NCBI GenBank assembly: GCA_016874735.1
Contig: VGTI01000007.1
Location: 1 to 64,000, forward strand
Reading direction: 5' to 3'
DNA: 64,000 bases
Source: Deltaproteobacteria bacterium
Lineage (GTDB): Bacteria > Bdellovibrionota_B > Oligoflexia > Oligoflexales > CAIYRB01
The notes below the pieces were generated by a model that was given only the letters and a program-made list of their open reading frames with translations, ran no database searches and was not told the origin of the DNA. The number at the start of each line of letters is the position of its first letter. The first letter of the stretch is position 1. Shown here one piece after another: positions 5,692 through 15,213 of this stretch. A program made the position numbers and the translations under genes.

Positions 5692-5713
5692 ATTATTTTG
5701 ATATCAAAATAAT
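5692..5713. promoter_or_regulatory. Perfect 22-bp palindromic operator between GH15 and otsA
   Basis: ATTATTTTGAT is followed directly by its exact reverse complement, giving a perfect 22-bp AT-rich palindrome in the short gap between two divergent genes. The length and composition suit a MarR/TetR/LacI-type dimer site. A MarR-family gene is the third gene of the otsA operon, so autoregulation by that protein is the simplest inference. Confidence 0.65.
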
Positions 5714-5727
5714 TGGCGGGGTGGAAG

Positions 5728-8109
5728 GTGAAGTTCTTGCTCAGGTTCCTTTTGCCGCTAGCATTGGTGCTAGGTTGTATTCTCGTAGCAGCGGCTCCAT
5801 TTGTAGACCGTTTGATTACTAAATGGTTTACCCGTGATCTCGATATCCGTGCCAGATTAATTTCGAATGTATTGGATGAGCCGCTGTCAGTCCTATTGGC
5901 CGACTCAACGCCCTCCAGTCGACTAAAGATAAAGAAGATCCTCACAAAAGTGACTCAAGATGAGCGCCTATTGGCAATCGCTCTCTGCGAAGATTCTGGA
6001 GAGATACTAATTCAGACTGATTTGTTTCCAAGTCAGTTGGGCTGTAGTGGGTTGGGTAATTCTCAACTGGTTGCGGGGAACACGTATCATTTGCCAAATG
6101 GCGATGTGCACGTTGCTACCTTTGAGACAGTCATTGATGATAAACCAGTTAACACCTACGCAAATGTTAATAGCTCAAGCCCAGGCGATACAGGACGGAG
6201 AATTCGCGTCCTTTTGCTCCATGATTTAAGTTTTGCCTCGCGGCGCAGTGAGGATACAAAGTTTTACTTGTTTCTTCTTTTTCTGTTCATGGGCCTAGTG
6301 ACATCAGCGATTACAATATTGGTCGCTAGATGGAGTAGGGCTTCATGGGTCAAATCAGTACGCCAGTTGGTTGGTGGTGTTCGTAACACTCAAGGCAGGC
6401 CTGAGAGTATAAATGAAAATCGTGATTTTCTACCAATCCTTAAGGATTTAAAGGGTTTAGTTCGCGATCTTGAATCAGCGAACACGGGAGCAATTGGTCC
6501 CGTTGGTGAGTGGGACGCTCAAGCACTTAGAAGCATTTTGACAGAGAAATTGTCAGAGGATGAGATTCTTGTTTTATCAAATCGGCAACCGTATATCCAC
6601 AACAGAAGTGGCGACAAGATAGAGGTTCAATCGCCAGCCAGCGGTCTTGTTACGGCCCTAGAACCCATTTTGAAAGCGTGTTCGGGTGTGTGGATTGCCC
6701 ACGGAAACGGAACTGCCGATGGTGAGGTTGTTGACGACCAAGACCGCATAGCCGTGCCGCCGGGTCGTCCTCAGTATGATATTCACCGAGTCTGGCTAAC
6801 CGCCGAGGAGGAGCATGGATATTATTACGGCCTCGCCAATGAGGGTATTTGGCCGTTGTGTCACATAGCTCATACACGCCCAATTTTTCGCCAGTCGGAT
6901 TGGGCACAGTATGTAGCAGTGAATAAGAAATTTGCTGAGGCCGCAATTAAGGACTCAAAAACTGAAGATCCAGTCATTCTTGTGCAGGATTACCATTTTT
7001 CGATGGTACCTAGGCTGATCAGAGAGCGGTTACCCAGGGCGACCATTATCACGTTCTGGCATATTCCATGGCCAAATGCGGAGTCCTTTGGCATTTGTCC
7101 TTGGCGGCAGGAAATCCTTGAGGGATTACTCGGGAGTTCGATCATTGGATTTCATACACAGTTCCACTGCAATAATTTCATGGAGAGTTGTGACCGATAC
7201 CTAGAGTCCCGCGTTGATCGAGAGGTTGATTCGATTTCGTATCGGGGTGAGGTGACTGAGGTGAGGCCGTATCCCATATCTATCGAGTGGCCTCCGGAGA
7301 GGATGGCAGATGTCTCCGATGGTGCGGAATGCCGAAGGACGATCAAGTTAAAGTATGGCCTGAAAAATAACGTGAAGATTGGCATTGGTGTGGATCGCTT
7401 AGACTACACCAAAGGGCTTATTGAACGTTTTCGAGCCGTAGAGCGCTTTTTGGAGCTCTTTCCGCAGTGGATTGGGGAATTTGTTTTTATTCAAATTGCG
7501 GCACCATCGCGTTCGAACATTACTGCCTATCATCGATTCGCCGATGACTTGAGGTTGGTTGTTGAGGAGATTAATAGTCGCTTCGGCAGGCCAGGCTATT
7601 ATCCAATTATATTGGTAGAGTCCCATCACGATCCACTAGATGTTTTTGCCCATATGCGCGCTGCCGACCTGTGTATGGTTACAAGCCTGCATGATGGAAT
7701 GAATTTAGTGGCAAAAGAGTTTGTTGCGGCACGGGAAGACGAACAAGGAGTATTGATTCTAAGCATGTTCGCTGGCGCCTCTAGAGAACTCGCTGAGGCA
7801 CTGGTTGTAAATCCATACGATGCTGAATTGTGCGCCTATGCATTGGCGACAGCACTCACTATGCCTGTATCTGAGCAGCGAGATCGGATGCGCACACTGC
7901 GAGCTATCGTTAAGGAGCGAAATGTCTATCGTTGGGCGGGTCGGATGTTGATAGATGCTTCACGTATGAGAGCAAGAAATCGTTTTATGGGCCGAGTTAA
8001 GGAGTTCTATCAAGGCAACGGCGAGAGTATAGATCCAGATCGAGTCAGATTTGCACGTGCGCTTTCGAGTATCGATATTATCGGTGGCAGAGGGGTTATA
8101 AGAATATGA
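5728..8109 (+). CDS. otsA: Trehalose-6-phosphate synthase with membrane sensor-like N-terminus
   Basis: About 793 residues. The C-terminal ~510 residues are a GT20 trehalose-6-phosphate synthase (UDP-glucose + glucose-6-phosphate): SNRQPY, ILVQDYHFSMVP, FWHIPWPNAESF, IGFHT, GVDRLDYTKGL and LHDGMNLVAKEF are all present. The first ~280 residues are unusual. A transmembrane helix (about 3-25), a ~150-residue extracytoplasmic region, a second helix (about 181-203) and a HAMP-like linker place the enzyme at the inner membrane. Start GTG is chosen because an upstream in-frame TTG at 5713 falls inside the palindrome and lacks a ribosome site. It overlaps otsB by 4 bases. Soluble OtsA is about 470 residues, so this is a genuine fusion. 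Confidence 0.9.
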   Translation: MKFLLRFLLPLALVLGCILVAAAPFVDRLITKWFTRDLDIRARLISNVLDEPLSVLLADSTPSSRLKIKKILTKVTQDERLLAIALCEDSGEILIQTDLFPSQLGCSGLGNSQLVAGNTYHLPNGDVHVATFETVIDDKPVNTYANVNSSSPGDTGRRIRVLLLHDLSFASRRSEDTKFYLFLLFLFMGLVTSAITILVARWSRASWVKSVRQLVGGVRNTQGRPESINENRDFLPILKDLKGLVRDLESANTGAIGPVGEWDAQALRSILTEKLSEDEILVLSNRQPYIHNRSGDKIEVQSPASGLVTALEPILKACSGVWIAHGNGTADGEVVDDQDRIAVPPGRPQYDIHRVWLTAEEEHGYYYGLANEGIWPLCHIAHTRPIFRQSDWAQYVAVNKKFAEAAIKDSKTEDPVILVQDYHFSMVPRLIRERLPRATIITFWHIPWPNAESFGICPWRQEILEGLLGSSIIGFHTQFHCNNFMESCDRYLESRVDREVDSISYRGEVTEVRPYPISIEWPPERMADVSDGAECRRTIKLKYGLKNNVKIGIGVDRLDYTKGLIERFRAVERFLELFPQWIGEFVFIQIAAPSRSNITAYHRFADDLRLVVEEINSRFGRPGYYPIILVESHHDPLDVFAHMRAADLCMVTSLHDGMNLVAKEFVAAREDEQGVLILSMFAGASRELAEALVVNPYDAELCAYALATALTMPVSEQRDRMRTLRAIVKERNVYRWAGRMLIDASRMRARNRFMGRVKEFYQGNGESIDPDRVRFARALSSIDIIGGRGVIRI

Positions 8110-11002: not shown

Positions 11003-12817
11003 ATGACTTTGATGCGACACACTCTGCAATCTTTCAGAGCCGTTGGGCTCTGCGCGATCGTTTTGGGCGCGTCGGTTTTGCCATGGGGCTGCTCCAAACA
11101 GGATAAAGGGCTCGCCGCAGCAAAGTCGGTTGATCTTCGGAGCGGCAACAAATGTGACAAGGGTGGTGCCTGCGAAGCAAATTTGGGTAACGTCACCAAG
11201 GCGGAGAGCTTACTGAGTTTGGATAAACTACTTGAGAGCGTTCAACCTCTGAGCGACGAGGCTGCCATCAAGTACCTCATCAGTCAGTGTGCCACGTGTC
11301 ACGATACCAAGACTGGTTCTGTGCCTAGCTTTTGGCCGATGGAGCTGGATAGTTTCAGCAAACAGACTTTGATTGTCGACACAGCCGCCCCCAAAGTGTT
11401 CGCCTCAGTCCTCTTTAAGGCTCGAGATCTCATGGGTACTAAGCCGGAACCAATGCCCCTGGGGCAGATGTCACCTGAGGCTAAAGCACAGTTACTGCCA
11501 TTGGTGAAATGGATGACCATCGAGATGCCAGCGGCTGTTCAGGATGCACTGCCGATCTTGTCCGGTAGCGAGCTGAAAAATGAAATTGGCAACGTAGGCG
11601 TGATCCTGAACTTCAAATGTACCCAGCCGTCGACCGCGAGAGAATTTATCCGCCGGCTGATCAATGATGCGTTTAGTCGAGAGCCTCTTGAATCTGAGTT
11701 TAAACTTGCGACAGGCCCTCTCGATGACCCAGTCTCTGAGGCAGATCGCCGAGCGCTCAGTGCGCGTATCCTGAGTGATGCTGCTTGGAAGGCCGAGTTC
11801 GAGGGTAAAACGCTGCGTAAGTTTGCCAATAAGCTCTCAGGAAGTGGCAGCATCAAGCCCTTCGACAGCGTGATTAGCGCCGTACAAGCAGATGATCTCA
11901 AGCAGGAATTTTATCAGCTTTTGCTGACCGCCTACGACAAAACTAGTTACAGGGACATCTTACTCGGCTCTGATGTGATGGTCACTCCCAATACGGCAGC
12001 TCTTTATGGATGCCAGGTTCCGCAGTCAGGTTGGACCCCGTGCACGATGGCCTCTCCACGGGGGTCTTATTTTACAACTTTCGGCTATCTAAGGTCGAAG
12101 CCTAGTTCCTTCCTGAACGGTAACAACAATTACGGACGTGCTGCGCTCATGCAGTACGTACTCAAAGGCGACGTACTAAAACCTGGTTTAGATGGTGTCA
12201 AAGGCGGAGCCGACATTAATCCTCTCCCTGCTTGTCTTAAGACTAAGGATTTCCGCGGGGAAAAAGGTTCAGCCACTGTAGCTTGGATGGGGAGTTCTGC
12301 AATCCCAATGTCTGCAAACCTTTGTCAGAGTTGCCATATCGATCGGCACATGGCAGCGGGTTCGATTTTGTTCAGGCCCTTTAACGTCTTCGGTAAGATA
12401 TATGGCAAAGACGCCAACATCGATAGCAGTGACCCAGATTTTGCCACGGCTACCAGTCAACATATGGTCAATCAGCTGAATCTGACGGGTCCTATGCAAG
12501 CAGTGACGGCGGACTTCTTGAAAAGTCTACTCGATGTCGATGAGACAGAACAGGCATGTATCGGCGCTTCAAGTAACGCTGGCAACGAAGTCATCATGAA
12601 CTCGGTCAAGGATCTAGCTGCCTACATGGTTGGTAGCGACGGGCGTATCGTCGCGGGTGGTTTAGCGCGGCACTTACCAAGGGCCCTTAGTAACCTTTCC
12701 ACAACAACGGAAGAGGTTATCGTCAAAGTCAAGGAGGCTTCCGAATCTGGGAAGGGTTTGCTGGCTCCCATGATCACAGCTTATTTTGGCACCGAGACCT
12801 TTGCATGCAAGAGGTAA
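11003..12817 (+). CDS. Dihaem c-type cytochrome lipoprotein, distantly DUF1592/DUF1588-like
   Basis: This 604-residue exported lipoprotein has signal peptide and lipobox LPWGC near residue 30. It contains two c-haem motifs, CATCH near residue 96 and CQSCH near 441. Around the second haem the text (SCHIDRHMAAGSILFRPFNVFGKIYG, in part) resembles the CxxCH...DP.G..E.FD..G segment of DUF1588/DUF1592 proteins of planctomycetes and myxobacteria. TPNTAALYG resembles their NerlA.hYG motif. It is first in a tight three-gene operon with gaps of 4 bases. The likely location is the periplasmic face of a membrane, and an electron-transfer or oxidase role is inferred. A second ATG at 11012 is an alternative start. 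Confidence 0.7.
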   Translation: MTLMRHTLQSFRAVGLCAIVLGASVLPWGCSKQDKGLAAAKSVDLRSGNKCDKGGACEANLGNVTKAESLLSLDKLLESVQPLSDEAAIKYLISQCATCHDTKTGSVPSFWPMELDSFSKQTLIVDTAAPKVFASVLFKARDLMGTKPEPMPLGQMSPEAKAQLLPLVKWMTIEMPAAVQDALPILSGSELKNEIGNVGVILNFKCTQPSTAREFIRRLINDAFSREPLESEFKLATGPLDDPVSEADRRALSARILSDAAWKAEFEGKTLRKFANKLSGSGSIKPFDSVISAVQADDLKQEFYQLLLTAYDKTSYRDILLGSDVMVTPNTAALYGCQVPQSGWTPCTMASPRGSYFTTFGYLRSKPSSFLNGNNNYGRAALMQYVLKGDVLKPGLDGVKGGADINPLPACLKTKDFRGEKGSATVAWMGSSAIPMSANLCQSCHIDRHMAAGSILFRPFNVFGKIYGKDANIDSSDPDFATATSQHMVNQLNLTGPMQAVTADFLKSLLDVDETEQACIGASSNAGNEVIMNSVKDLAAYMVGSDGRIVAGGLARHLPRALSNLSTTTEEVIVKVKEASESGKGLLAPMITAYFGTETFACKR

Positions 12818-12821
12818 CGAG

Positions 12822-13517
12822 ATGATATTCAGGGTTTCTATAGTTAAACTATTAGTCTTCACGATCGCATTCGTAGGGTGCTCTCGTGATGATAGAGCAA
12901 AGATAACCAGCTTAGTCAAAAAAAAACCAGGATCCACGCCGGCGGTTTCGCCGGTGGCGGAGGAGCGTATCGTACAACGTGACATCAGTAGCTCCGGTGC
13001 GGGATTTCAAGTTAAAGATGTTATGTTGCTTCGTAGTTCAGTGGAGAGCTGTGTTGGTCCTGATATGCTTAAGGTGACTACTGATATGCTTATGCCCGAT
13101 AACCTGAGTTCGACCCCAAAGGGAGCTGACGGCCGCATTCGTTTTCTTCTACCAATTCAATACGCGAGCAACGATGATATCATCGATAAGGAGAGAGGTA
13201 ATTTGCTCGATCTCGAAGCGGGTTCGCGTACCAGTGTCTCGGCGGATGGATTGACCGACACATATCTCAGATCTTTGGAGACGATTGGCAACGTCGTGGC
13301 TCATAACTGTGCACCGAATAATCCTAACTGCAGCTGTGCGGGCAAGGAGCAGGCTCTGGCGATGATGACAAGGTGTCTGCCGGGCATTAACCCGAATACA
13401 ATTGAGATGACCGAATCAGCAGCACTGTTGGGTGCTATATGTGCCGAAGGTGTTGATGGGATGCGTACCGCAGTGGCTTCACTCATTGCGTCTTACGCCT
13501 TCGCATTAGCGAGATAA
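12822..13517 (+). CDS. Cys-rich lipoprotein of unknown function (operon middle gene)
   Basis: About 231 residues from MIFRVSIVKLL; the ATG at 12822 follows AGGTAACGAG and lies 4 bases after the previous stop. It has a lipoprotein signal with lipobox FVGC near residue 20. The mature protein carries a cysteine cluster HNCAPNNPNCSCAGKEQ and MTRCLPG near residues 165-190, probably disulfides since no CxxCH is present. I recognise no family. Its position between a cytochrome lipoprotein and a Tat-exported DUF1501-like protein suggests it is a structural partner of that pair. Confidence 0.65.
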   Translation: MIFRVSIVKLLVFTIAFVGCSRDDRAKITSLVKKKPGSTPAVSPVAEERIVQRDISSSGAGFQVKDVMLLRSSVESCVGPDMLKVTTDMLMPDNLSSTPKGADGRIRFLLPIQYASNDDIIDKERGNLLDLEAGSRTSVSADGLTDTYLRSLETIGNVVAHNCAPNNPNCSCAGKEQALAMMTRCLPGINPNTIEMTESAALLGAICAEGVDGMRTAVASLIASYAFALAR

Positions 13518-13521
13518 CAAT

Positions 13522-15213
13522 ATGAAGTATCAATTAAATCGGCGGTCTTTAATTAAAATCGGTGCCAAAGGCGCGGTCGGTGCTATCGGACTTGAGCAGC
13601 TCCTAGGGATACCGTTGATCGGTGATTACATCGATCATTGGCCGAGTTCGCGACTGGCTCACCTGCTTGGTGTCAATCCTTACGATGCCTTTCAGATGAT
13701 GGACCTTGCATGGCGCGGGGGACTCGGCGTACCGTTTGCAAACGCTCAGGCGACGCCAGCCGGATGGACTCTGGTTCAGATCAAGGTGTGCAACCATGTT
13801 TTCACGCCACTGGTTTTTAAACTTGGGCAGCTGAACCCAGACAATAGCGTCACGATCGATACTGCGGCTGGTATGAAGCTGGGATCGGAAAAGATGGGCG
13901 CAGCTAAAGATCTTTTAATAGGTAAAGGCCTGGATCTCATCAGTGATAACGCGCGTTGGCGTAATCTCCGTTTTAACAAATGGTTTGCCGACATTTTACA
14001 AAACGGCACGGCCGATGGTGATGCAGCACAAACGTCCGCTAACGCTCGCGGGCTGAGCTCTGCCGACATTGCGCCTCTCAGTGCTGATAAGGTTGCGGTA
14101 CAGGCCTTTCTCGGGCTCGGCCAGATAAGCATGAACAATCATGCGCTGAAAGGCTGCAAGCTACGTGCTACTCAGCCGGACGTCACATTGTTTGCTCAGT
14201 CTACAGGGCTAATTACGAGTCCTCTGGGTATCACCTGCTTCATGATGGGCGAGGCTTACGACCAAGCTGAGGGCTCGATCAGTCGTAATGCAGTGCTGGG
14301 TAAAGATGGTGAGGCAGTAGTTGTCAACAGCCGTTCGGTTCAAGCTTATGTGTCGCAAATCAGTCAATTTGTCGGCAAAAGCTATGCTGACCGTCAGCCA
14401 CTTGAGCAAAATGTGATTTATAAGATGGACCAGATCGTTCAGAAAGATCCGAAACTAAGGCGCGATTTAGTCGATAGTATTGCGCAGTTTCAAGCTGGCA
14501 TGACAAATCTGGATGCAGCTGCGAGTTTGGAAAAGACACGTCAGACTTTACAAGCGGCGCAAGGTAACGCGCAGAATCAAAATCGTCGCATGGTCGGCGC
14601 TGCGAGTGAATTTCTCGGTCAGTGTAAATACGTCGTCACATCGCTCGATTTACCGGGCAATCCCGTGCGTAATTTTTCTCTCTTTTTAAATGCAACTGAT
14701 CTCGATGGGCGAACGGCAGATAGCGCCACCGACGGAGGCGGCGGCAACCCTACCGTGCAGGCACTTAGTTATGTGGAAGCCATGCGACAACTCGGAATGG
14801 GGCTCAATGTCCTGGCAAAGGCCATAGCCAACGGCAAGAAAATGGTTGTCGTCGTTCATTCCGAGGGCGGACGTGACGTAAACATGGCCGACAGTAAGAC
14901 TAGCTTTGCCCTAGTCTTAGGTCCGAAAGGTGCGAGTCTTCTAGACGATCAACTCTACGCCAATAAGGCGATGATCAATCAGACAAAGAATGACGTGATC
15001 GCCAATCCTGCACAGCCTACAGCGGCTGTCCCTTGGGATGTTGAGGGGCTTGTAGAAGCTAACGGAGCGGCATCAGCTAACACAGTGGTTCCGAACACTG
15101 GTGATGTGCAGCTGGGAGTGATTGAATTTCTTGAATCACAGACGGGTATTAAAGCTCGAGCCGGATTGACTGGAGTCGACGGAAGGTTTGTCAAACTCAA
15201 AAGGGTTTCTTAG
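13522..15213 (+). CDS. Tat-exported DUF1501-like protein
   Basis: This 563-residue protein has a twin-arginine signal (NRRSLIKIGAKGAVGAIG) at residues 6-23. The body lacks clear enzyme motifs, but VVVVHSEGGRDVN near residue 442 resembles the EFGRT signature of DUF1501, a sulfatase-like family that is typically encoded next to DUF1549/1553 or DUF1592-type cytochromes. It begins 4 bases after the preceding lipoprotein stop. Its 3' end overlaps the convergent M23 peptidase gene by 17 bases. Export through Tat suggests folding or cofactor insertion in the cytoplasm before work with the cytochrome partner. Assignment to DUF1501 is distant. Confidence 0.65.
   Translation: MKYQLNRRSLIKIGAKGAVGAIGLEQLLGIPLIGDYIDHWPSSRLAHLLGVNPYDAFQMMDLAWRGGLGVPFANAQATPAGWTLVQIKVCNHVFTPLVFKLGQLNPDNSVTIDTAAGMKLGSEKMGAAKDLLIGKGLDLISDNARWRNLRFNKWFADILQNGTADGDAAQTSANARGLSSADIAPLSADKVAVQAFLGLGQISMNNHALKGCKLRATQPDVTLFAQSTGLITSPLGITCFMMGEAYDQAEGSISRNAVLGKDGEAVVVNSRSVQAYVSQISQFVGKSYADRQPLEQNVIYKMDQIVQKDPKLRRDLVDSIAQFQAGMTNLDAAASLEKTRQTLQAAQGNAQNQNRRMVGAASEFLGQCKYVVTSLDLPGNPVRNFSLFLNATDLDGRTADSATDGGGGNPTVQALSYVEAMRQLGMGLNVLAKAIANGKKMVVVVHSEGGRDVNMADSKTSFALVLGPKGASLLDDQLYANKAMINQTKNDVIANPAQPTAAVPWDVEGLVEANGAASANTVVPNTGDVQLGVIEFLESQTGIKARAGLTGVDGRFVKLKRVS

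Follow-up and report, generated by a model that had tools for sequence, protein, structure and literature searches.

The 64,000-nucleotide window (the whole stretch of DNA analysed here, positions 1 to 64,000 of contig VGTI01000007.1 from the Deltaproteobacteria bacterium assembly GCA_016874735.1) carries on its + strand, at 11003-15213, three genes that all code for exported proteins: a dihaem cytochrome c lipoprotein, a small cysteine-containing lipoprotein and a protein exported by the twin-arginine translocation (Tat) route. This trio is a real, repeatedly conserved unit, and it is a divergent and distant variant of the widespread, uncharacterised pair of a PSD/PSCyt3 cytochrome and a DUF1552/DUF1501 protein rather than a wholly new system. 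Our tentative reading, to which we give a probability of about 45%, is that its products form a lipid-anchored dihaem redox complex of the cell envelope with an alkaline-phosphatase-fold partner.

Organization and conservation of the trio

11003..12817, + strand: gene 1, dihaem cytochrome c lipoprotein of 604 residues, recognized from its open reading frame, homologues beside the trio in relatives and profile comparison
12822..13517, + strand: gene 2, small cysteine-containing lipoprotein of 231 residues counted from the ATG at 12822, without known family
13522..15213, + strand: gene 3, Tat-exported protein of 563 residues, putative remote DUF1501 relative with a predicted alkaline-phosphatase superfamily core

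Both intergenic gaps measure 4 bases. For gene 2, the alternative start in the list of open reading frames (TTG at 12786) is less likely than the ATG at 12822. An initial annotation of the window had described three exported genes with this spacing, and their coordinates, the lipoboxes, the twin arginine and the two CxxCH motifs are all confirmed in the sequence. The three are real genes. Their reading frames are conserved in orthologues from related genomes, where all three again lie side by side, and against two congeners the third codon positions differ by 59-69%, with saturated synonymous divergence (dS) and a nonsynonymous divergence (dN) of 0.09-0.33, indicating selection at the protein level on each of them. 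A scan for promoters and terminators gave no clear excess above chance, and in Pfam and NCBIfam scans no member of this copy reaches a cut-off.

Conservation was assessed over a sample of 115 genomes, comprising the window's own (G000), 57 of its class and 57 distant ones; relatives carry the other G numbers, and contigs are written Cn. The phylum-level profile search covers the same 58 genomes as the class, so that reach beyond the class is given by the 57 distant genomes. The initial homologue search of the whole sample found the Tat protein in 11 genomes, the cytochrome in 13 and the lipoprotein in 10, all within the window's class. A lipoprotein profile picks out 20 matches, spread over 11 of the 58 class genomes. 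Wherever no contig end interrupts the locus, the order is cytochrome-lipoprotein-Tat protein; the one exception is G008:C3, whose Tat gene, though still a neighbour, is divergent. The expected co-occurrence of the three genes elsewhere is thus found wherever contigs allow it to be seen. A second, diverged trio lies outside the window on the same contig (G000:C7:83.7-87.8 kb; L069:5688-9771). A third type, with unchanged order, is present in G001 and G003, which belong to the same genus as G000, and in G053; its cytochrome matches with E (expectation) values of ~1e-36 to 1e-40, and the homology of its lipoprotein (5e-6 to 8e-14) and Tat protein (4e-4 to 3e-17) is seen by profile alone. The order is therefore kept over three diverged types and at least six genera, and its persistence in the third type, despite similarity visible to profiles only, indicates that the trio is old and that its linkage has been maintained.

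The dihaem cytochrome

11090..11092, + strand: lipobox cysteine Cys30 (PWGC-SKQ), invariant in 19 of 19 homologues
11288..11302, + strand: haem 1 site CATCH, residues 96-100, invariant in 19 of 19
11453..11455, + strand: Met151, probable distal ligand of haem 1, the single conserved Met besides Met1
12323..12337, + strand: haem 2 motif CQSCH at residues 441-445, within the DUF1588-like region and unchanged in all 19 homologues

Judged by profile comparison, gene 1 encodes a remote relative of the DUF1592-DUF1588-DUF1585 (PSD4-PSCyt3-PSD2) cytochromes with an extra N-terminal class I domain. In this copy the DUF1592/DUF1588 resemblance lies below the Pfam cut-offs (PF07631/PF07627). Alignment of the profile of 19 trio cytochromes with that of 16 canonical ones, however, gives an E value of 2.3e-8 over ~325 columns of the DUF1592-1588-1585 region, which improves to 1.3e-11 when the third-type members are added; the trio cytochrome of G048:C2 passes the Pfam DUF1592 cut-off unaided (24.1 versus 23.3 bits). 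Ahead of this region lies a class I cytochrome c-like domain, marked by weak Pfam hits near haem 1 in 14 of the 19 members. No Pfam match to PSD3 or PSD5 (DUF1587/DUF1595) is found in the gene 1 chain, which consequently lacks the full PSD3-PSD5-PSD4-PSCyt3-PSD2 order.

The residue at position +2 of the lipobox, a serine, suggests that the protein is located at the outer membrane. Among the 19 cytochromes, conserved histidines are limited to H100 and H445 of the two CxxCH motifs, and M151 is the one conserved methionine if Met1 is left out of account. Beyond the lipid-bearing and haem-binding cysteines, another six are invariant. From this pattern, and by analogy with the methionine ligand of class I cytochromes c, haem 1 is probably a His100/Met151 electron-transfer haem. 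Haem 2 is left with no conserved distal His or Met, a feature suggesting that it may be an active site, either the reaction point or the point of electron entry.

The Tat-exported protein

13540..13545, + strand: twin arginine Arg7-Arg8, conserved in 16 of 17 proteins, the sole exception having a truncated N-terminus
14698..14706, + strand: D393-L-D395, aligned with the DTH motif of DUF1501; D393 invariant
14872..14892, + strand: R451...D457 (GRDVNMAD), aligned with the FGR...DH region of DUF1501; both residues invariant

The N-terminal region of gene 3 carries the twin-arginine signal NRRSLIKIG, and the protein is, on profile evidence, a remote DUF1501 relative. None of the 17 trio Tat proteins has a Pfam match to DUF1501 (PF07394). 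Comparison of their profile with that of 16 DUF1501 proteins gives an E value of 0.0024, or 2.7e-5 with the third-type members added; as controls, the reversed profile yields 0.75, and 60 column shuffles score no higher than 19.2, against 35.9 for the real alignment. The faint DUF1588/DUF1592 and DUF1501 resemblances first noticed in the window, sub-threshold as they are in this copy, are hence borne out as remote homology. DUF1552 (HXXSHH, PF07586) was rejected as the direct family of the Tat protein, since the signal peptide region alone aligns; with that peptide removed, the E value falls in the range ~0.01-0.4. DUF1501 and DUF1552 are themselves related by profile (E value of 4.5e-14).

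Six residues, H207, S233, D303, D393, R451 and D457, are invariant in the Tat protein. From the DTH and DH metal-site residues of DUF1501, only D393 and D457 are kept: the main type has Asp at position 395, one copy has Asn and six second-type members have His, and the His that follows the Asp of the DUF1501 DH motif is absent throughout. An AlphaFold2 model of the protein (mean predicted local distance difference test, pLDDT, of 74; predicted template modelling score, pTM, of 0.82) was used in a Foldseek search, in which the matches in the PDB belong mostly to the alkaline phosphatase superfamily, each of them weak (E values of ~0.01-0.05, best 0.009) and with low TM-scores.

The small lipoprotein

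13308..13337, + strand: cysteine cluster C163-x6-C170-x-C172; C172 is always kept, and 5 of 19 homologues lack both C163 and C170

Gene 2 has the lipobox FVGC, with Cys20 as the lipid-bearing residue, and no match in Pfam or NCBIfam. The initial annotation was right that the usual cytochrome/Tat pairs lack this third lipoprotein, which is the new part of the trio. Its cysteine cluster, singled out there as a special feature, fared less well. Across the 19 homologues the invariant cysteines are C77, C172, C185 and C207; 14 of the proteins have both C163 and C170, and the other 5 have neither. Because they are lost as a pair, C163 and C170 appear disulphide-like, and a cofactor site for a metal or haem was rejected; the cysteines look like three disulphides rather than such a site. 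The tail of the lipoprotein shows a weak profile match to the DUF1587/DUF1595 segment of canonical cytochromes (E value of 0.0047, probability of 7.5%); its score of 23.7 exceeds those of all 60 shuffles, the highest of which is 14.2. The lipoprotein may thus be this segment, seemingly absent from the trio cytochrome, turned into a separate protein.

A model for a possible complex

Assembled into a mechanism, these features suggest the following picture. Both lipoproteins would be anchored by their lipids, probably in the outer membrane, and face the periplasm. The Tat protein would fold in the cytoplasm, be exported and then dock on the two lipoproteins. Its predicted alkaline-phosphatase-superfamily core would hold an altered metal site that keeps H207, D393, D457 and R451 but in the main type misses two histidines of DUF1501, and would probably bind and present the substrate. 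The likely site of reaction or of electron entry is haem 2, within the DUF1588-like domain; from there electrons would travel via haem 1 (His100/Met151) to soluble carriers of the periplasm; this direction is the one we infer, and electrons may either enter or leave at haem 2. The small lipoprotein would be a structural or docking component stabilised by disulphides, with a possible origin in the DUF1587/1595 segment. The initial suggestion of a new periplasmic oxidase or electron-transfer complex accordingly stands as far as a plausible redox complex that no characterised complex matches. What the sequences demonstrate is the gene order, the export signals, the haem motifs, the conserved linkage and the remote homology of genes 1 and 3; the assembly into a complex, its location, the path of the electrons and the part played by haem 2 are our reading of them.

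Neighbouring genes and co-occurring proteins

Two further exported proteins of Tat type, A8 and A7 (~322 and 329 residues in G000, at G000:C19, L083:7982-9991), adjoin the trio in G002, G005, G008, G023, G038, G048 and G056. A7, the second of the pair, accompanies the main trio type in each of the 11 genomes that carry it, against 7 of the remaining 47 (Fisher p 1.4e-7, uncorrected for relatedness); close relatives that lack the main type (G001, G003 and G006) also lack A7. Apart from the Tat signal, neither A7 nor A8 has a Pfam match. A7 carries the invariant motif MHxD(x4)HxMRYF...DPVGR; a likeness to SoxZ or superoxide reductase, suggested by MHGD..HYMRYF, was dropped, with no match in Pfam, NCBIfam or PDB. 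That the trio, A8 and A7 make up a five-protein envelope oxidoreductase, with an active site formed by an open haem 2 and the alkaline-phosphatase-fold subunit, is a speculative extension that we think rather improbable. We know of no description of an alkaline-phosphatase fold used in redox chemistry.

The surroundings of the trio otherwise differ from genome to genome. An M23 peptidase gene lies beside it in G000 and G004, an enolase-superfamily (epimerase-like) gene in G002, and extra CxxCH proteins are encoded nearby in G048, G050 and G053. The second trio of G000 is preceded by a gene for a 301-residue lipoprotein and followed by a TldD/PmbA gene and a second gene resembling its partner, a layout with counterparts in G002 and G004. 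Third-type trios (L078:3095-10648 and L079:5986-10410) are flanked by additional exported proteins: L078:4855-6360 has a cytochrome c-like C-terminus and appears von Willebrand A-like by eye, as does L079:9253-10410, which has no Pfam match. Elsewhere in the window, at 5713-8109 on the + strand, a trehalose-6-phosphate synthase gene is followed by an OtsB-like gene. Its Glyco_transf_20 domain starts at residue 285, and the ~280 extra N-terminal residues, unusual for OtsA, resemble a membrane-anchored sensor region with two hydrophobic stretches and a periplasm-like loop.

Alternative interpretations

Several results weigh against the redox-complex reading. The fold matches of the Tat protein are individually weak (E ~0.01) and superpose poorly; a fold search with the cytochrome gave no significant match, and PDB sequence searches with three profiles returned no relative. 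The ligand of haem 2 could be a residue other than His or Met. Third-type cytochromes carry a single CxxCH, so haem 1 appears dispensable in some versions. One homologous trio cytochrome has a weak PSD5 (DUF1595) match of its own (E value of 0.0029), and the link between the lipoprotein and DUF1595 is only suggestive. The literature searched holds no functional data for any relative of the trio.

The alkaline-phosphatase superfamily matches of the Tat model and the conserved Asp, His, Ser and Arg residues would also fit a metal-dependent hydrolase of the phosphatase or sulfatase type, to which cytochrome and lipoprotein would be accessory as anchor, redox supply or sensor; in freshwater Verrucomicrobia, sulfatase genes do occur near PSCyt genes (PMC5615132). 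The loss of two DUF1501 metal-site histidines in the main type, however, nothing that points to a nucleophile and no sulfatase or phosphatase gene recognised beside the trio at the loci examined make this unlikely in our view. Two lipid anchors, a class I haem beside one whose distal side offers no conserved His or Met, and the nearby CxxCH proteins in three genomes could instead indicate that the trio delivers electrons at the outer membrane, as a conduit or reductase with, for example, peroxide or an extracellular acceptor at its end, and does not oxidise an organic substrate. We consider this somewhat less likely still, as the unit usually has two haems, no porin-like partner or multihaem protein is recognised within it, and likeness to MtrC-type proteins is limited to the CxxCH motif.

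Action on cell-wall or other envelope peptides would accord with the M23 peptidase gene, the TldD-like genes behind the second trio and the enolase-superfamily gene, but these neighbours vary between genomes and are not kept at the class level, and we give it little credence. Finally, exported genes are common around the trio, so its members might be independent and neighbours by chance; with the order kept through three diverged types in at least six genera, such a coincidence is contradicted by the conserved linkage and hardly credible.

Relation to known systems

Planctomycete-type PSCyt/PSD cytochromes are frequent in Planctomycetes, Verrucomicrobia and their relatives, and a Verrucomicrobia study states the function of PSCyt genes as unknown and suggests a link to carbohydrate metabolism (PMC5615132); in some bacteria, chitin synthase genes travel with DUF1501/DUF1800 genes (PMC5122149). 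With three compactly arranged and strictly linked genes, one of them for a distinctive additional subunit, and with a Tat protein that co-occurs with it, the trio offers candidate partners for the function of the whole class, and haem 2, D393 and D457 as residues through which that function can be approached; it is a good candidate for experiment.

Canonical DUF1587-1595-1592-1588-1585 cytochromes directly followed by a DUF1552 Tat protein occur in related genomes and three times in G000 itself (C9, C16 and C91), so that the undescribed system proposed by the initial annotation is better seen as a relative of known, uncharacterised pairs. Canonical pairs apparently lie close to the trio in G002 and G005. 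Replacement of the trio by such a pair at the uvrC-M23 site of these genomes was considered and rejected: contig ends, joined as we presume, put the pair between the M23 gene and the trio. G000 has another divergent cytochrome/Tat pair at C36 (L028:2986-7714), in which a protein of 1057 residues with two CxxCH motifs, DUF1585 above the cut-off and weak DUF1588 and DUF1595 matches directly precedes a Tat protein that matches DUF1501 weakly.

Most fold matches of the Tat model, each of them weak, fall in the alkaline phosphatase superfamily (alkaline phosphatase, sulfatases and phosphoglycerate mutase), although nucleophile and full metal site are not identified in the model. Gene 1 resembles the class I cytochrome c and cbb3-type subunit III domain through its Pfam matches at haem 1 and a conserved methionine, the usual distal ligand, but this is just one among several domains of the chain. 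With DUF1501 proteins (PF07394), as found in DUF1501/DUF1800 pairs, the Tat protein has in common its export route and the aligned DTH and FGR...D regions, and it may share the alkaline-phosphatase fold; it differs in falling below the Pfam cut-off, in the replacement of two site histidines in the main type and in a partner that is not DUF1800. A parallel to the trio as a whole is the pair of a PSD3-PSD5-PSD4-PSCyt3-PSD2 cytochrome and an HXXSHH (DUF1552) protein, which likewise combines a lipoprotein cytochrome, with a homologous DUF1592-1588-1585 region, and a Tat-exported protein. In contrast to this pair, the trio has cytochromes that nearly all lie below the Pfam cut-offs, a Tat protein that resembles DUF1501 rather than DUF1552 directly, an extra N-terminal haem domain in the cytochrome, and a third gene.

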